Positions 1,171 through 5,798 of a stretch of 5,798 nt of DNA are shown here, one piece after another. The translations under genes were made by a program, and so were the position numbers. This DNA is from an uncultured Rhodocyclaceae bacterium (GTDB taxonomy: Bacteria > Pseudomonadota > Gammaproteobacteria > Burkholderiales > Rhodocyclaceae). The stretch spans positions 1-5,798 of the forward strand of contig CAJBAP010000026.1 of NCBI GenBank assembly GCA_903950295.1, read 5' to 3'. The notes under the pieces are model-generated. The model did not search any database. It had not been told where the DNA came from and worked only from the letters and a program-made list of their open reading frames with translations. Each line of letters begins with the position of its first letter. Positions within the stretch are counted from its first letter, which is position 1.

Positions 1171-1730
1171 AGGGCGCGCTCGCGAATTTCCGGCCAGGCC
1201 TTGCTCAGGTAATACCCCATCGACCAGAGCGTCAGCACGGCTGCAATCCAGATCAACCACATCCCCATGGTGGCAATCGGCAAGGGGCCGATCGAATCGA
1301 AATAAAGCAGCAGCGGAATCGCAATCATCTGCGCGGTCGTCTTCAGCTTGCCGACAAACGAAACCGCAACACTGCGCGATGCGCCGATTTTCGCCATCCA
1401 TTCGCGTAGCGCCGAAATGGCAATTTCGCGGCCGATGATGATGAAGGCAACGATGGCATCGGCACGACCGAGCTTCACCAGCATCACCAGCGCGGCAGCC
1501 ACCATCAGCTTGTCGGCTACCGGATCGAGAAAAGCCCCGAAGGCCGAGGTTTGACCGAGCTTGCGTGCCAACCAGCCATCGAACCAGTCGGTGATGGCCG
1601 CGATCACAAACGCAACCGTGGCAATCAGGTTCTGTTCATGCACCGGCAAGGGCATGTAATAGACACCCACCACCAGCGGGATCAGTACGATACGCGCCCA
1701 GGTCAGCAGGTTGGGGATGTTGAACGGCAT
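1167..1730 (-). CDS. pgsA: CDP-diacylglycerol--glycerol-3-phosphate 3-phosphatidyltransferase
   Basis: This inner-membrane enzyme of phospholipid synthesis transfers the phosphatidyl group from CDP-diacylglycerol to glycerol 3-phosphate, giving phosphatidylglycerol phosphate, the precursor of phosphatidylglycerol and cardiolipin. The 187-residue product has the usual family length. It carries the complete CDP-alcohol phosphatidyltransferase signature DGx2ARx8Gx3Dx3D at residues 51-73 (DGWLAR, then G65, D69 and D73); the aspartates bind the metal ion. The N-terminus MPFNIPNLLTWARI is typical of PgsA, and hydrophobic segments at about 7-25, 34-50, 75-100 and 132-172 fit a polytopic membrane protein. 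The ATG at 1728-1730 overlaps the uvrC stop by one base (TGATG), which decides the start over the longer reading frame beginning at 1790 inside uvrC. The stop overlaps the next gene's GTG. uvrC-pgsA adjacency is common in proteobacteria. Confidence 0.96.
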   Translation of the reverse strand: MPFNIPNLLTWARIVLIPLVVGVYYMPLPVHEQNLIATVAFVIAAITDWFDGWLARKLGQTSAFGAFLDPVADKLMVAAALVMLVKLGRADAIVAFIIIGREIAISALREWMAKIGASRSVAVSFVGKLKTTAQMIAIPLLLYFDSIGPLPIATMGMWLIWIAAVLTLWSMGYYLSKAWPEIRERAL

Positions 1731-3523
1731 CAGTGCAGACCCTGGTGAATCGCTTCGGCCAACGCGCGGCTGATGCCAGCCACCCGGCACAAGTCTTCGA
1801 TCGTCGCCGCCTTGACGCCCTCCAGCCCACCGAATTGCGCCAGCAGCCTGCGCCGCCGCGTCGGCCCGACGCCCGCCACATCCTCCAGTGCAGAGCGGCT
1901 ACGCACCTTGGCGCGTCGCGCCCGATGGCCGACGATGGCGAAGCGATGCGCCTCGTCGCGAATCTCCTGAATCAGATGGAAGCCGGGATTGTCCATGGCT
2001 AATTGTAACGGCTCGGAGATGCCATGCAGAAACAAGGTTTCGAGGCCGGGCCGACGCGCCTCCCCTTTTGCCACACCCACACTGGCAAGATGGTCGAGCC
2101 CCAATTCGGCGAAAACCTCGCGCGCCACACCATGCTGTCCCTTGCCGCCATCGATCAACACGAGGTCGGGCGCTGCCGTCTCGCCAGCGCCGACTTTCTC
2201 GTAGCGCCGCATCAGCGCCTGACGCATCGCGGCATAGTCATCCCCCGGCTGAATGCCTTCGATATTGAAGCGGCGATAGTCCCCCTTCTTCATCGCGCCA
2301 TCGACGCAGACCACGCAGGATGCCACCGTGCCCTCGCCCATCGTATGGCTGATATCGAAGCATTCGATGCGGCGGGGCGTTTCCGGCAGATCGAGAGCCA
2401 AGCGGAGGGCTTCAAGGCGCGCCAGCGCCCGACTTTTGGCCTGATGTCTGGCCGTCACCGCCAGCCGGGCGTTGTTCAGCGCCATGGACAGCCAGGCGCG
2501 CTCCATCTCGCTTTTCGGCCCACTCGCACACAAGCTCCCGGGAAAATCTTCCAGCGGCCAGGGGTCGAGAATCACGCGCGGTGGCGGCGTCTGCTCGACA
2601 TAGTGCTGCGTCAGAAAAGCCGCCAATCCTTCTGCGGCTTCAGCTTTCAAACCCGCCTGTGGAAAATGCGCCCGATCACCCAGATGCAACCCACCGCGAA
2701 CCAGCGCCAGATTGACACACAGTTCGCCGCGCTCGACGACCGCAACGACGATATCGACGTCCGCATCCTTGGTCGAACTCACATATTGCCGGTGCAGCAC
2801 CGCCTGCAAGGCCTTGATCTGATCACGCAAGGCGGCCGCCTGCTCGAAGCGCAGCGCTTCGGCTTCCCGTGCCATCTGCTCCATCAGCTTTTCGATCACC
2901 TCCGCATGCCGCCCTTTCAGAAACAGTTCCGCCAAGCGCACATCGACGGCATAGTCGGCGGCAGAAATCAGTCCGACGCAAGGTGCCTTGCAACGCCCGA
3001 TCTGATGCATCAGGCAAGGTCGAGAACGGTGGGCAAAGACCGCTTCCTCGCAGGTGCGCAGAAGGAAAGTCTTCTGGATCAACTGAATACCCTCACGCAC
3101 GGCGAGTCCGCTCGGAAACGGCCCGAAGTAATGCGATTTTTTCTCGAAGGCGCCACGGTGATAAAAAAGCCGGGGAAACGCGCCGTCCCCACCGCCAGAT
3201 ATGCCGATATAAGCGTAAGACTTGTCGTCGCGAAACAGGATGTTGTATTTCGGCGCGAGCTTCTTGATCAGAGTGTTTTCGAGGATCAGCGCCTCGGCCT
3301 CCGAACGCGTCGCGGTCGTTTCCATGCCAGCCACCTGCTGCAACATCAGCGCAATGCGCGGGCTGTGGCCGGTTTTCTGAAAGTAGGATGAAACACGCTT
3401 CTTGAGGTTCTTTGCCTTGCCGACGTAGAGCACCGCACCGTCGGCGGCCAGCATGCGATATACGCCCGGCGCTTCGGTCAGCGTGGCAAGGAAGGATTTG
3501 CTGTCGAAAACGGAGTCGGACAT
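1730..3523 (-). CDS. uvrC: Excinuclease ABC subunit C
   Basis: UvrC is the nuclease of nucleotide excision repair; it is recruited by UvrB on damaged DNA and cuts on both sides of the lesion. The 597-residue product is close to the E. coli length (610). In order: the GIY-YIG nuclease that makes the 3' cut (GVYRM at 20-24, LYVGKAKNLKKR at 32-43, acidic EALILEN at 77-83); four cysteines C158, C170, C178 and C182 with the spacing of the iron-sulfur cluster ligands of E. coli UvrC; a UVR (UvrB-binding) motif at about 207-242; the RNase H-like domain for the 5' cut with D390 (ECFDISHT), D458 (LVLIDGGKGQ) and H526 (DEAHRFAI); and tandem helix-hairpin-helix DNA-binding motifs at about 546-597 (VAGVGPTRRRRLL, VAGISRALAEAI). 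The start at 3521-3523 (MSDSVFDSKSFL) matches the family N-terminus, but no Shine-Dalgarno sequence precedes it. The frame stays open upstream to an ATG at 3616. Confidence 0.97.
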   Translation of the reverse strand: MSDSVFDSKSFLATLTEAPGVYRMLAADGAVLYVGKAKNLKKRVSSYFQKTGHSPRIALMLQQVAGMETTATRSEAEALILENTLIKKLAPKYNILFRDDKSYAYIGISGGGDGAFPRLFYHRGAFEKKSHYFGPFPSGLAVREGIQLIQKTFLLRTCEEAVFAHRSRPCLMHQIGRCKAPCVGLISAADYAVDVRLAELFLKGRHAEVIEKLMEQMAREAEALRFEQAAALRDQIKALQAVLHRQYVSSTKDADVDIVVAVVERGELCVNLALVRGGLHLGDRAHFPQAGLKAEAAEGLAAFLTQHYVEQTPPPRVILDPWPLEDFPGSLCASGPKSEMERAWLSMALNNARLAVTARHQAKSRALARLEALRLALDLPETPRRIECFDISHTMGEGTVASCVVCVDGAMKKGDYRRFNIEGIQPGDDYAAMRQALMRRYEKVGAGETAAPDLVLIDGGKGQHGVAREVFAELGLDHLASVGVAKGEARRPGLETLFLHGISEPLQLAMDNPGFHLIQEIRDEAHRFAIVGHRARRAKVRSRSALEDVAGVGPTRRRRLLAQFGGLEGVKAATIEDLCRVAGISRALAEAIHQGLH

Positions 3524-3568
3524 AAAAGTCGGTGCTGGCGGGATGGAATGCCCCGAATGGGGTACGGC
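3524..3568 (-). repeat. 45-base repeat, copy A, in the uvrC leader
   Basis: Read on the minus strand, this segment runs from GCCGTACCCCAT to CCGACTTTT and stops exactly at the uvrC ATG. It matches the plus-strand segment 5680-5724 inside earP at 42 of 45 positions without gaps. The differences are T/G (serine/alanine codon), C/T (serine/phenylalanine codon) and A/G (silent alanine). Beyond the 45 bases the similarity ends on both sides. The copy holds a short CCCC-ATTC-GGGG inverted repeat. Read in the uvrC frame it would encode AVPHSGHSIPPAPTF, with no stop between it and UvrC. The repeat is seen directly; its origin is unknown. Confidence 0.9.
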
Positions 3569-3599
3569 GACAGAAAACTTTCCGGACAGCCCTGCCGGG

Positions 3600-5177
3600 C
3601 TATGACGGGCAAGCATCCACCGGTTCGACTACAGAAACCTCATAGTCGGCGTTGCCGCTGCAACGCGCCGTGACCTTGAACAGTCGCCGTCCATGATGGC
3701 CGGCCACCAGATAAGTTCCGCCCAACTGGCAGGCAAAGCTCGTGACCAGCCAACTGGCGGGATCACCGGTTATCAGGATGGCGTCACGCATTTCCGCCAG
3801 CCCCACATTCGCGGTCTGTCCTTCGTGGCCCATGCCGACAGGTACCGGATTGCCGCGAAACATCTCGACCCCAACGCGGCGCGCACGACTGCTCCCGTAA
3901 AGACGCCTGACGACGGCGACATGCCAGTCGATGGAGTCGCTCTCGCGTACCGCCAGCAAGCCGCCGACGGCAATCCAGTTGCGAAAACCGGGCATGGCCA
4001 GGCTGTATCCTTGTGCGCTGCTGTCGCAGGCACTCCATGACTCGACGGCCTGGCTGTCACCGATGGTTTCCATCGCCGCCAGAACCTCAACCGGAGTTAA
4101 CTGTCTCTTTTCATCCTCCAGGCCCACCATGATTTCGCGAACACGATCGCTGATGGCGCGGTCTCGCGTATCGTAGGCCTCCAGTTGCCCGCCACCGCGC
4201 ACATAGGCGGCATAGGCGACGACACGGCGGATATTGTCAAAGCCGCCGGTCACCCGCACGCTGTCTTCACGCGTCTGCCGGGCACTGCCGCGCTGGACGT
4301 GCTTGCGCTCCCAAGTGGACGACATGCGTAGCGCCAGCGCTTTGAGGGTCTGCATGTCGGTATGGGGCAAGGGGGTGCCCGCCCAGGCGGGGAACCCCCC
4401 ACTATCCGGCAGTTTTACGATGCCGGCCATCTGTCCGAGCAGAGGGCCGGGACCGACAAAAAGAATCGCAGCATCGACATCGGCCTGCCCCGGCGCCGTC
4501 ACCCGGCCATCCGCCAGTACCGCGTAGGGGGCAGTCGCCCCCGGAGAATTTTTCATGACAATCCGGCTGCCGAAACTCGTGATGAAACGCTCCAGATATT
4601 CGACCTGATCGATCGTCAAGGAATCGAACGGCGCGGTATCCCAAAGCAAGGCGATGGCCAACTCCTGTCCCACGGAAGTTTCTGCCATGCCCGGATAAGG
4701 CGATTTACGCTGGATCGCCAGGCCATGTTGCTGGGCCTTCATGAACAGGTCGATGATTTCCCGATGCAGGACACCCGGGGCGTCGTATGACATGCGCGCC
4801 AAGCGGCAGGCACGAGAAAACAGATAGGCAGCACGCAAGTATGCGGACAGCCTGTCAGCATTATCCACAGACGACTGTCGGGCAACCAGCGCGTAAGCGC
4901 GGGCAAAGCGCTCGCAATAGGTACGCATCAACTTGGGTGCAGTACCGACCCGACGCTGGGTGGATATGGTTTCGCCGATTTCGGCAATCACCGGTTCAAG
5001 ACGTGTGTCGGCCAGTCGCAGCAAGGCCAGGCTGAGATTGCCGCCTTCGCCCTGCTCCTCCACCCAGTCAGAAACCTGCTGCAGCACCGCAATCGCACTG
5101 CCGGTCAACGCCTCGAGAAATTCACTCGCCGTGTCTTCTGGTTTCGCGCTGCCACGTTTGCCAAGCCACTCGAACAT
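3600..5177 (-). CDS. Uncharacterised 525-residue protein with possible PilZ-like C-terminal segment
   Basis: I do not recognise a characterised family. The start at 5175-5177 (MFEWLGKRG) is chosen because AAGGAA at 5186-5191 lies 8 bases upstream; the ATG at 5219 would add 14 residues and run into the earP start. There is no signal peptide or clear membrane helix, so it is probably cytoplasmic. Residues 1-200 look mainly helical and rich in Ala, Leu and Arg. The middle (about 215-265) has short hydrophobic strands (APYAVLADGRV, DAAILFVGPGPLLGQM). At 383-447 the pattern ACDSSAQGYSL, GGLLAV, WHVAVVRRLYG, RRVGVEMF resembles a PilZ domain (c-di-GMP receptor fold), with D385-S-S-A-Q-G390 matching its D/NxSxxG motif. 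The companion RxxxR motif is missing, so nucleotide binding is doubtful. It lies 76 bases before uvrC on the same strand and diverges from earP. The reading frame is secure; the PilZ link is tentative. Confidence 0.85.
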   Translation of the reverse strand: MFEWLGKRGSAKPEDTASEFLEALTGSAIAVLQQVSDWVEEQGEGGNLSLALLRLADTRLEPVIAEIGETISTQRRVGTAPKLMRTYCERFARAYALVARQSSVDNADRLSAYLRAAYLFSRACRLARMSYDAPGVLHREIIDLFMKAQQHGLAIQRKSPYPGMAETSVGQELAIALLWDTAPFDSLTIDQVEYLERFITSFGSRIVMKNSPGATAPYAVLADGRVTAPGQADVDAAILFVGPGPLLGQMAGIVKLPDSGGFPAWAGTPLPHTDMQTLKALALRMSSTWERKHVQRGSARQTREDSVRVTGGFDNIRRVVAYAAYVRGGGQLEAYDTRDRAISDRVREIMVGLEDEKRQLTPVEVLAAMETIGDSQAVESWSACDSSAQGYSLAMPGFRNWIAVGGLLAVRESDSIDWHVAVVRRLYGSSRARRVGVEMFRGNPVPVGMGHEGQTANVGLAEMRDAILITGDPASWLVTSFACQLGGTYLVAGHHGRRLFKVTARCSGNADYEVSVVEPVDACPS

Positions 5178-5185
5178 CAATGCGT

Positions 5186-5191
5186 TTCCTT
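5186..5191 (-). promoter_or_regulatory. Shine-Dalgarno for the 525-residue gene
   Basis: On the minus strand AAGGAA stands 8 bases before the ATG at 5175-5177. It supports that start over the upstream in-frame ATG at 5217-5219. The 40-base gap to earP holds no convincing -10/-35 pair for either strand, so promoters probably lie inside the opposing 5' coding regions. Confidence 0.6.
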
Positions 5192-5206
5192 CATCTACAC
5201 CCGCGT

Positions 5207-5210
5207 AGGA
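5207..5210 (+). promoter_or_regulatory. Shine-Dalgarno for earP
   Basis: AGGA lies 7 bases before the earP ATG at 5218-5220, an ordinary spacing. The next in-frame ATG (5233) has no such motif, so 5218 is preferred. Confidence 0.6.
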
Positions 5211-5217
5211 TACCGCC

Positions 5218-5798
5218 ATGTCCGCAGATCAAATGATCTCCTGCGATATTTTCTGCGCCGTCATCGACAATCTGGGCGATGCCGGCGTCTGCTGGCGGCT
5301 CGCGCGCCAGCTCGCGACAGAGCATGGCTGGCAGGTGCGCCTCTGGATCGACGATCCCGCACCACTCGATTTGCTCGCGCCCGACCATGCGCGTCTGCCG
5401 GTCGAAATCCGCGCGTGGGCGGGCGACTTCGCTACCGTTACGCCCGCACGGATCGTCATCGAAGCCTTCGCCTGCGAGTTGCCCGCCGCCTATCTGGCCA
5501 CCATGGCGACCCAGGCACACCCGCCGGTCTGGATCAATCTCGAATACCTCTCAGCCGAAGATTGGGTCGCTGGCTGCCACGGCCTGCCCTCGCCTCATCC
5601 TCAGTTGCCGTTGCCTAAATACTTTTTCTTTCCTGGTTTCACGTCAGGAACAGGCGGACTGCTGCGGGAGCGTAACTTTGCCGTACCCCATGCGGGGCAT
5701 TTCATCCCGCCAGCGCCGACTTTTGGCGCTTCGCTCAATGTCTCACTGTTCTGTTACGACAACCCCGCACTGCCCGATCTGCTCGATAGCTGGCGCGA
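5218..5798 (+). CDS. earP: EF-P arginine rhamnosyltransferase EarP (partial, C-terminus off the right edge)
   Basis: EarP transfers rhamnose from dTDP-L-rhamnose to a conserved arginine of elongation factor P, which the ribosome needs to get through polyproline stretches. The frame is open from the ATG at 5218 to the end of the window, giving 193 residues, about half of the usual family length. Family hallmarks are plain: DIFCAVIDNLGDAGVCWRLAR at the N-terminus, with D17 and D21 at the positions of the catalytically important aspartates of characterised EarP enzymes; IEAFACELP at 81-89; WINLEYLSAEDWV at 105-117; CHGLPSPHPQ at 120-129; FFFPGFTSGTGGLLRE at 136-151; and SLFCYDNPAL at 176-185. 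Residues 155-169 (AVPHAGHFIPPAPTF) are encoded by a 45-base repeat also found before uvrC and lie in what I recall as a poorly conserved part of the family. The gene diverges from the 525-residue gene with a 40-base gap. In many genomes efp follows earP; that would lie outside the window. Confidence 0.96.
   Translation, partial: MSADQMISCDIFCAVIDNLGDAGVCWRLARQLATEHGWQVRLWIDDPAPLDLLAPDHARLPVEIRAWAGDFATVTPARIVIEAFACELPAAYLATMATQAHPPVWINLEYLSAEDWVAGCHGLPSPHPQLPLPKYFFFPGFTSGTGGLLRERNFAVPHAGHFIPPAPTFGASLNVSLFCYDNPALPDLLDSWR
5680..5724 (+). repeat. 45-base repeat, copy B, inside earP (codons 155-169)
   Basis: This is the partner of the minus-strand segment 3524-3568, with 42 of 45 bases identical, in inverted orientation and about 2.1 kb away. 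It occupies exactly 15 earP codons in the same frame that continues into uvrC at the other copy. It contains CCCC-ATGC-GGGG, and its end forms half of a longer hairpin: AGCGCC at 5712-5717 pairs perfectly with GGCGCT at 5725-5730 around a 7-base loop. Copy A lacks that second hairpin. Confidence 0.9.

Follow-up and report, generated by a model that had tools for sequence, protein, structure and literature searches.

The uvrC-earP locus and its inverted sequence pair

The window, by which we mean the whole 5,798-nucleotide stretch of DNA that was analysed, contains uvrC on the minus strand (1730-3523; Pfam UvrC domains) and, on the plus strand, the 5' half of earP (5218-5796; PF10093, E 7e-71), which runs off the window. 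Between the two lies a gene for a 539-aa protein (3600-5219, minus strand) that had no match in our Pfam scan; among the 40 homologs listed, 39 share 49-98% identity with it and 33 carry PF27104. In another locus, L002, uvrC and earP are adjacent and the gene for the 539-aa protein is absent.

An initial annotation of this DNA had described a 45-base inverted repeat with sharp edges, and this description was borne out: plus-strand 5680-5724 and minus-strand 3568-3524 align without gaps at 42 of 45 bases, 20 first-order Markov shuffles of the window yield inverted 45-mers that agree at 28-32 of 45 positions at best, and the 40 bases flanking the pair on each side match sporadically. The placement given for the two copies also holds, one lying inside earP at codons 155-169 and the other filling the space just before uvrC, where it ends at the ATG (3523-3521), as does the reading of their three differences in the earP frame as two amino-acid-changing and one silent. 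Two features had been overlooked. The leader copy and the earP copy read in the same frame (AVPxxGHxIPPAPTF), and a third, related copy, GCCGTCTCGCCAGCGCCGACTTT, lies within uvrC (2175-2197, plus strand, antisense to the gene), where the minus strand encodes KVGAGETA. Since the sequence abuts the uvrC ATG with no evident Shine-Dalgarno between (3521-3616, minus strand) and the frame of the leader copy stays open upstream to an ATG at 3616 (minus strand), the true start of uvrC is uncertain.

The arms are enlarged copies of a dispersed bipartite motif

We then examined the window by way of the genomes of relatives, taking the best 80 of 585 EarP relatives; the first six (67-73% identity) belong to Rhodocyclaceae or Sulfuritalea or are metagenome assemblies of unplaced affiliation. 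With 20 bases of the repeat as the probe and at most 2 mismatches allowed, we found 69 copies in genome G002, 10 in G001, 7 in G003 and 6 each in G004 and G006 (control 0-1), none in G005, and 1-2 in each of G007-G010, where controls totalled 0-2. When 73 copies were aligned, the edges of the conserved block coincided with those of the 45-base pair to within one base.

These comparisons reveal that the arms are enlarged copies of a bipartite 23-base motif, RCCGT-N4-CCAGCGYCGACTTT, each with a 21-nt stretch, the module M1, that separates GCCGT from the spacer. The earP copy is composed of GCCGT (5680-5684), M1 (5685-5705), the spacer CCCG (5706-5709), CCAGCGCCGACTTT (5710-5723) and a final T (5724), and the uvrC-leader copy, on the minus strand, of GCCGT (3568-3564), M1 (3563-3543), the spacer (3542-3539), CCAGCACCGACTTT (3538-3525) and T (3524). 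The third copy, within uvrC, is plain and matches the bipartite motif with 0 mismatches. In the earP genes of G001 and G003-G006 the corresponding position holds a shorter version without the central 21 bases, 0-2 mismatches away from the plain motif, and in 7 of 30 relatives the plain motif stands a few bases (1-5) before the uvrC start, with a different enlarged form there in an eighth, G135.

One suggestion of the initial annotation, that a fragment of earP was locally duplicated and inverted into the uvrC leader, can thereby be practically discounted: although the two places share the 45-bp form and lie within 2.1 kb of each other, other species hold the plain motif at both orthologous places independently, an occurrence that the annotation had itself named as evidence against its reading, and in G002 dozens of unrelated sites have the 45-bp form as well. 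The search of relatives that it had proposed returned many further copies, with the core present hundreds of times per genome, and the sequence is thus dispersed.

Anatomy and placement of motif copies in G002

In the 763 kb of G002 examined, conservation is concentrated in two blocks, GCCGT, which follows a C in 88% of copies, and the same downstream block as in earP; the 4-base spacer is more weakly conserved. Copies with 0, 1, 2 and 3 mismatches to the bipartite pattern number 66, 41, 20 and 10 before counts fall to background (0, 0, 1 and 0 for the reversed control), so that perfect copies exceed single-mismatch copies, a hallmark of the uptake signals USS and DUS. Genes, called with a custom dicodon finder, cover 90-91% of this DNA and hold 84 of the 127 copies with up to 2 mismatches, with a strong bias in codon phase (0/1/2: sense 22/14/1, antisense 36/0/11). 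With ~19 specified bases and ~1 copy per 6 kb, the motif is longer and sparser than known uptake signals.

On two G002 contigs the mean spacing between copies is 5.4 and 6.2 kb. Pairs less than 1 kb apart number 4 and 4, compared with 11.0 and 9.1 expected, and the coefficients of variation of spacing (0.82 and 0.71) lie beyond the random range on one contig of the two. The largest gaps gave no sign of being foreign islands: in the three largest per contig, of 16-23 kb, the 20 proteins scanned were those of ordinary genes. Motif copies fold no better than their shuffles (z -0.9 to +0.9), which speaks against a terminator or structured RNA.

The motif is confined to one Rhodocyclaceae clade

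The plain 23-mer is the main form, with 413-540 copies in G001-G006, 174 in G007 and 3 in G008, and 0 for the reversed control. In the family to which G002 belongs, 28 of the 249 genomes hold 124-648 copies, 62 hold 1-25 and 159 none, with 0-1 matches per strand for the reversed motif; the class with 1-25 copies includes at least one carrier, since G055 has 18 copies by the pattern used for this count and 214 by a looser bipartite pattern. The G055 copies have a freely varying spacer and either A or G as R, and all 100 listed of the 214 copies have T where other genomes have C; this T form is a dialect, seen in one genome only.

In a wider set of 300 genomes of the order, 22 had a match; only 4 exceeded 100 copies, all of them already known carriers, and the other 18 had 1-5. 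Of the genomes behind 27 named loci, seven exceed 100 copies, three of these being labelled Sulfuritalea sp., and genomes of Propionivibrio, Accumulibacter, Azonexus, Nitrotoga, Cupriavidus, Paraburkholderia and Nitrosomonas have 0-3. The uvrC sequences of 20 carriers are 79-91% identical to that of the window (the nearest, G003, at 91%) and those of 12 non-carriers 54-75%. In a UvrC protein tree of 31 rows, a single branch with support 100/99 separates the window and 19 carriers from 11 non-carriers. The motif is therefore confined to one clade of Rhodocyclaceae, where it is overrepresented on both strands. In three low-copy genomes the few copies are clustered, with 7 of 9 at 1.67-2.01 Mb of contig C1 in G138, 5 of 6 at 1.46-1.50 Mb of contig C1 in G093, and 9 of 16 on contigs C66, C104 and C557 in G066; these clusters look as if they had been imported from carriers.

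Plain motifs arise by substitution at well-aligned coding sites

At well-aligned coding sites the plain motif arises in place by substitution. A 6.5-kb region of G002 was searched for in 33 genomes and 30 loci were taken for alignment; the comparison covers three of the region's five motif sites, few relatives aligning at the other two. At these coding sites, with 28, 29 and 26 genomes aligned, all 83 ortholog rows have net-zero length, 64 of them free of gaps, and mismatches to the motif are graded from 0 to 12. Likewise, at the uvrC site 2175-2197, the length is the same in 28 of 30 relatives, and the mismatches form a gradation from 1 to 12.

We extended the comparison to 91 sites in the loci compared, 77 of which have an alignable ortholog. 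Among 710 pairs, which are redundant, in which the ortholog is motif-free, 541 have net-zero length and 81 differ by 1-3 nt, while the motif-bearing sequence has at least 4 extra nt in 79 and at least 4 fewer in 9; about half of this lean toward insertion comes from one site. The extra length is found mainly at the uvrC site of G135, which is 4 aa longer in its own right, at the earP loop and the uvrC leader, and at three further sites, two in L018 and one in L011. When G002 was compared with the non-carrier G093 over 1.2 of the latter's 3.66 Mb, 8 of 12 motif sites were gapped within 4 aa, as against 59 of 635 control segments (9%), and at 6 of these 8 sites G002 has the extra residues. A similar test in Haemophilus, restricted to segments alignable at 50% identity, is reported to have found that the USS is not inserted (PMC1626085), whereas in Neisseria many recent DUS are described as differing too much from their orthologs to have come about by point mutation, and recombination in permissive regions is the explanation given (PMC2397512). 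Both patterns are seen at the motif sites studied here.

Two modules lie within motif copies

M1 is accompanied by M2, a second module of 27 nt (24 in some copies) located between CCAG and CGCCGACTTT. M1 may be doubled and is once tripled, and the two modules can co-occur; altogether 49 of 179 distinct parsed G002 copies bear a module. Five of these 49 have an ortholog in the loci compared, and all five face a plain motif in a relative. In four of the five the gap is exactly 21, 42 or 27 nt; the fifth, in earP, shows a clean 27-nt gap for M2 and a less clean alignment for M1, and faces the M1 form of the window. In the opposite arrangement, one copy that is plain in G002 has M1 in its G001 counterpart. 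That module-bearing copies face plain ones is in part a matter of ascertainment, since most plain orthologs come from loci chosen for holding the motif; the exact gap lengths are unaffected by this. The uvrC leader holds M1 in the window, M2 in G135 and the plain motif in the seven relatives mentioned above.

M1 and M2 appear to be secondary sequences inside existing motif sites. The mark by which Rickettsia palindromic elements are recognised as insertions, an ortholog that is free of the element and lacks its full length, is borne by M1 and M2 at five G002 sites and is not seen for the plain motif where coding sites align. In 21 of 22 enlarged copies the module length is divisible by three. 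Furthermore, module sequence seems to have been copied between sites, since three doubled copies at unrelated sites combine nearly the same two distinct modules. The other suggestion of the initial annotation, that the arms are copies of a small dispersed element tolerated within genes, consequently stands in part: the sequence is dispersed and the 21-nt module behaves as an insert, but the 23-base core arises by substitution at well-aligned coding sites, even though some sites do change in length.

A putative DNA-uptake signal and its alternatives

Taken together, we consider the best joint explanation to be that a clade-wide 23-base motif, enlarged by modules at both arms of the pair, is a putative DNA-uptake signal spread by molecular drive, and we give this reading a probability of roughly 0.6. 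Under such a mechanism, competent cells would preferentially take up motif-bearing DNA, import and recombination would as a result favour alleles that carry or approach the motif, and molecular drive would spread it. Judged from genome comparison, we infer an uptake-signal-like function: what was observed fits the features published for uptake signals better than the features of a mobile element or of a polar chromosome signal. Counting against this reading are the length and sparseness of the motif, a spacing whose evenness departs from random on one contig of two only, the frequent gaps at motif sites in the comparison with G093 and the lean toward extra bases in motif-bearing sequences. Two families of the uptake machinery do not mark out the carriers either. 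ComEC (PF03772) occurs in 21 of 21 carriers searched but likewise in 8 of 9 non-carriers; PF16732, a ComP-like pilin family, occurs in 17 of 20 carriers and in all 12 non-carriers, where its presence disqualifies it as a discriminator. As both are common in non-carriers, neither explains the restriction to one clade.

The same motif could instead be the chromosomal binding site of a lineage-specific protein involved in chromosome organisation, repair or the steering of recombination, and be kept by selection rather than by uptake. A long, precise, bipartite sequence with a variable 4-base spacer, present in genes and in intergenic DNA at rather even intervals, is what such a site might look like; its dialect and its spread through coding DNA are nevertheless more typical of uptake signals, and it lacks strong strand polarity, with genome-wide counts in G002 of 238 and 231, though two contigs together lean 79 to 52. 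KOPS and Chi, for comparison, have strong strand polarity. The equal genome-wide counts speak against a polar chromosome signal in spite of the lean on these two contigs, and we regard a protein-binding site as unlikely, though a serious contender. A small mobile element of the REP or RPE type, spreading by insertion and tolerated in frame, would explain why some sites are longer in carriers, why enlarged forms share internal modules at unrelated sites and why module lengths keep to multiples of three; in addition, a motif copy with 3 mismatches precedes one RAYT domain match in G006 by ~120 nt (locus L183: copy at 178-201, PF01797 match at 320-649). Such an element is contradicted for the plain motif at well-aligned coding sites by their net-zero length and graded intermediates, and the copies do not fold beyond expectation. 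RAYT was found in only two of five genomes, G002 and G006, with no match in G001, G003 and G004, which are incomplete assemblies, and all three RAYT loci lack an M1 copy; around the one RAYT gene of G002, a locus of 3.3 kb, the nearest motif-like copy is ~1.2 kb off. Neither the strong hairpin nor the RAYT gene flanked by copies that would identify a REP/RAYT element was found, and a mobile origin for the whole family seems to us quite improbable.

Relation to known systems

Uptake signals have been described for Neisseriaceae and Pasteurellaceae (PMC7811141, PMC1939737). With the Pasteurellaceae USS, as reported in PMC1626085, the putative uptake signal shares overrepresentation, location in coding DNA (~65%), an excess of perfect over one-mismatch copies, an origin by substitution (here at the aligned coding sites) and clade-specific types; the USS, however, has a 9-bp core with AT-rich flanks, whereas the motif has ~19 specified bases in two GC-rich blocks and can contain internal modules. 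Like the Neisseriaceae DUS, for which lineage dialects that may differ at one position and sites in permissive regions are described (PMC3630211, PMC2397512), it has a dialect form; DUS, though, are 10-mers with variants that number thousands per genome and have a known receptor, ComP, whereas the putative signal here comes without a ComP-like discriminator (PF16732).

Rickettsia palindromic elements and REP elements are dispersed short repeats tolerated in frame. The motif shares this dispersal and in-frame tolerance, and its enlarged forms resemble such elements, but the plain motif is not inserted at aligned coding sites, shows no extra folding and, in G002, coexists with a RAYT gene that has no M1 copy next to it. 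Among the literature matches listed, we found no report containing any of four stretches of the motif and none joining 'DNA uptake sequence' and 'Rhodocyclaceae'.

Neisseriaceae are betaproteobacterial. If the uptake reading is true, the motif would be a third, long bipartite signal in environmental Betaproteobacteria, offering independent tests of why uptake signals evolve (molecular drive versus selected recombination), and transformation would then have to be frequent in a group that is represented here chiefly by metagenome assemblies. The modules would serve as natural experiments, both on how widely the motif can be broken apart without being lost and on the way in which very short sequences spread. 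We put forward more tentatively, as a speculation well short of an even chance, that this is a third independent uptake-signal lineage outside Neisseriaceae and Pasteurellaceae whose copies have been colonised by 21- and 24/27-nt mini-sequences copying precisely into motif sites, a homing-like parasite that would be among the smallest self-spreading DNA.

Other overrepresented sequences

A second overrepresented 12-mer, GGGCCGCCCCAA, occurs in 42 copies on G002 contigs C1 and C4 (L184-L222), compared with 0.17 expected. A search for a counterpart motif in the non-carrier G093 returned, as the top 15 12-mers of 1.2 Mb, words that belong to a CRISPR-like repeat; weaker motifs may be masked by it. 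The sequence in question, present in ~49 copies on contig C1 (L283-L342) and ending in GAGGATTGAAAC, looks like a CRISPR repeat. Finally, two 10-mers are overrepresented on the same contig, AGCTTTTCCG with 37 copies as against 2.25 expected and AAAGCGGCAC with 28 as against 2.56.
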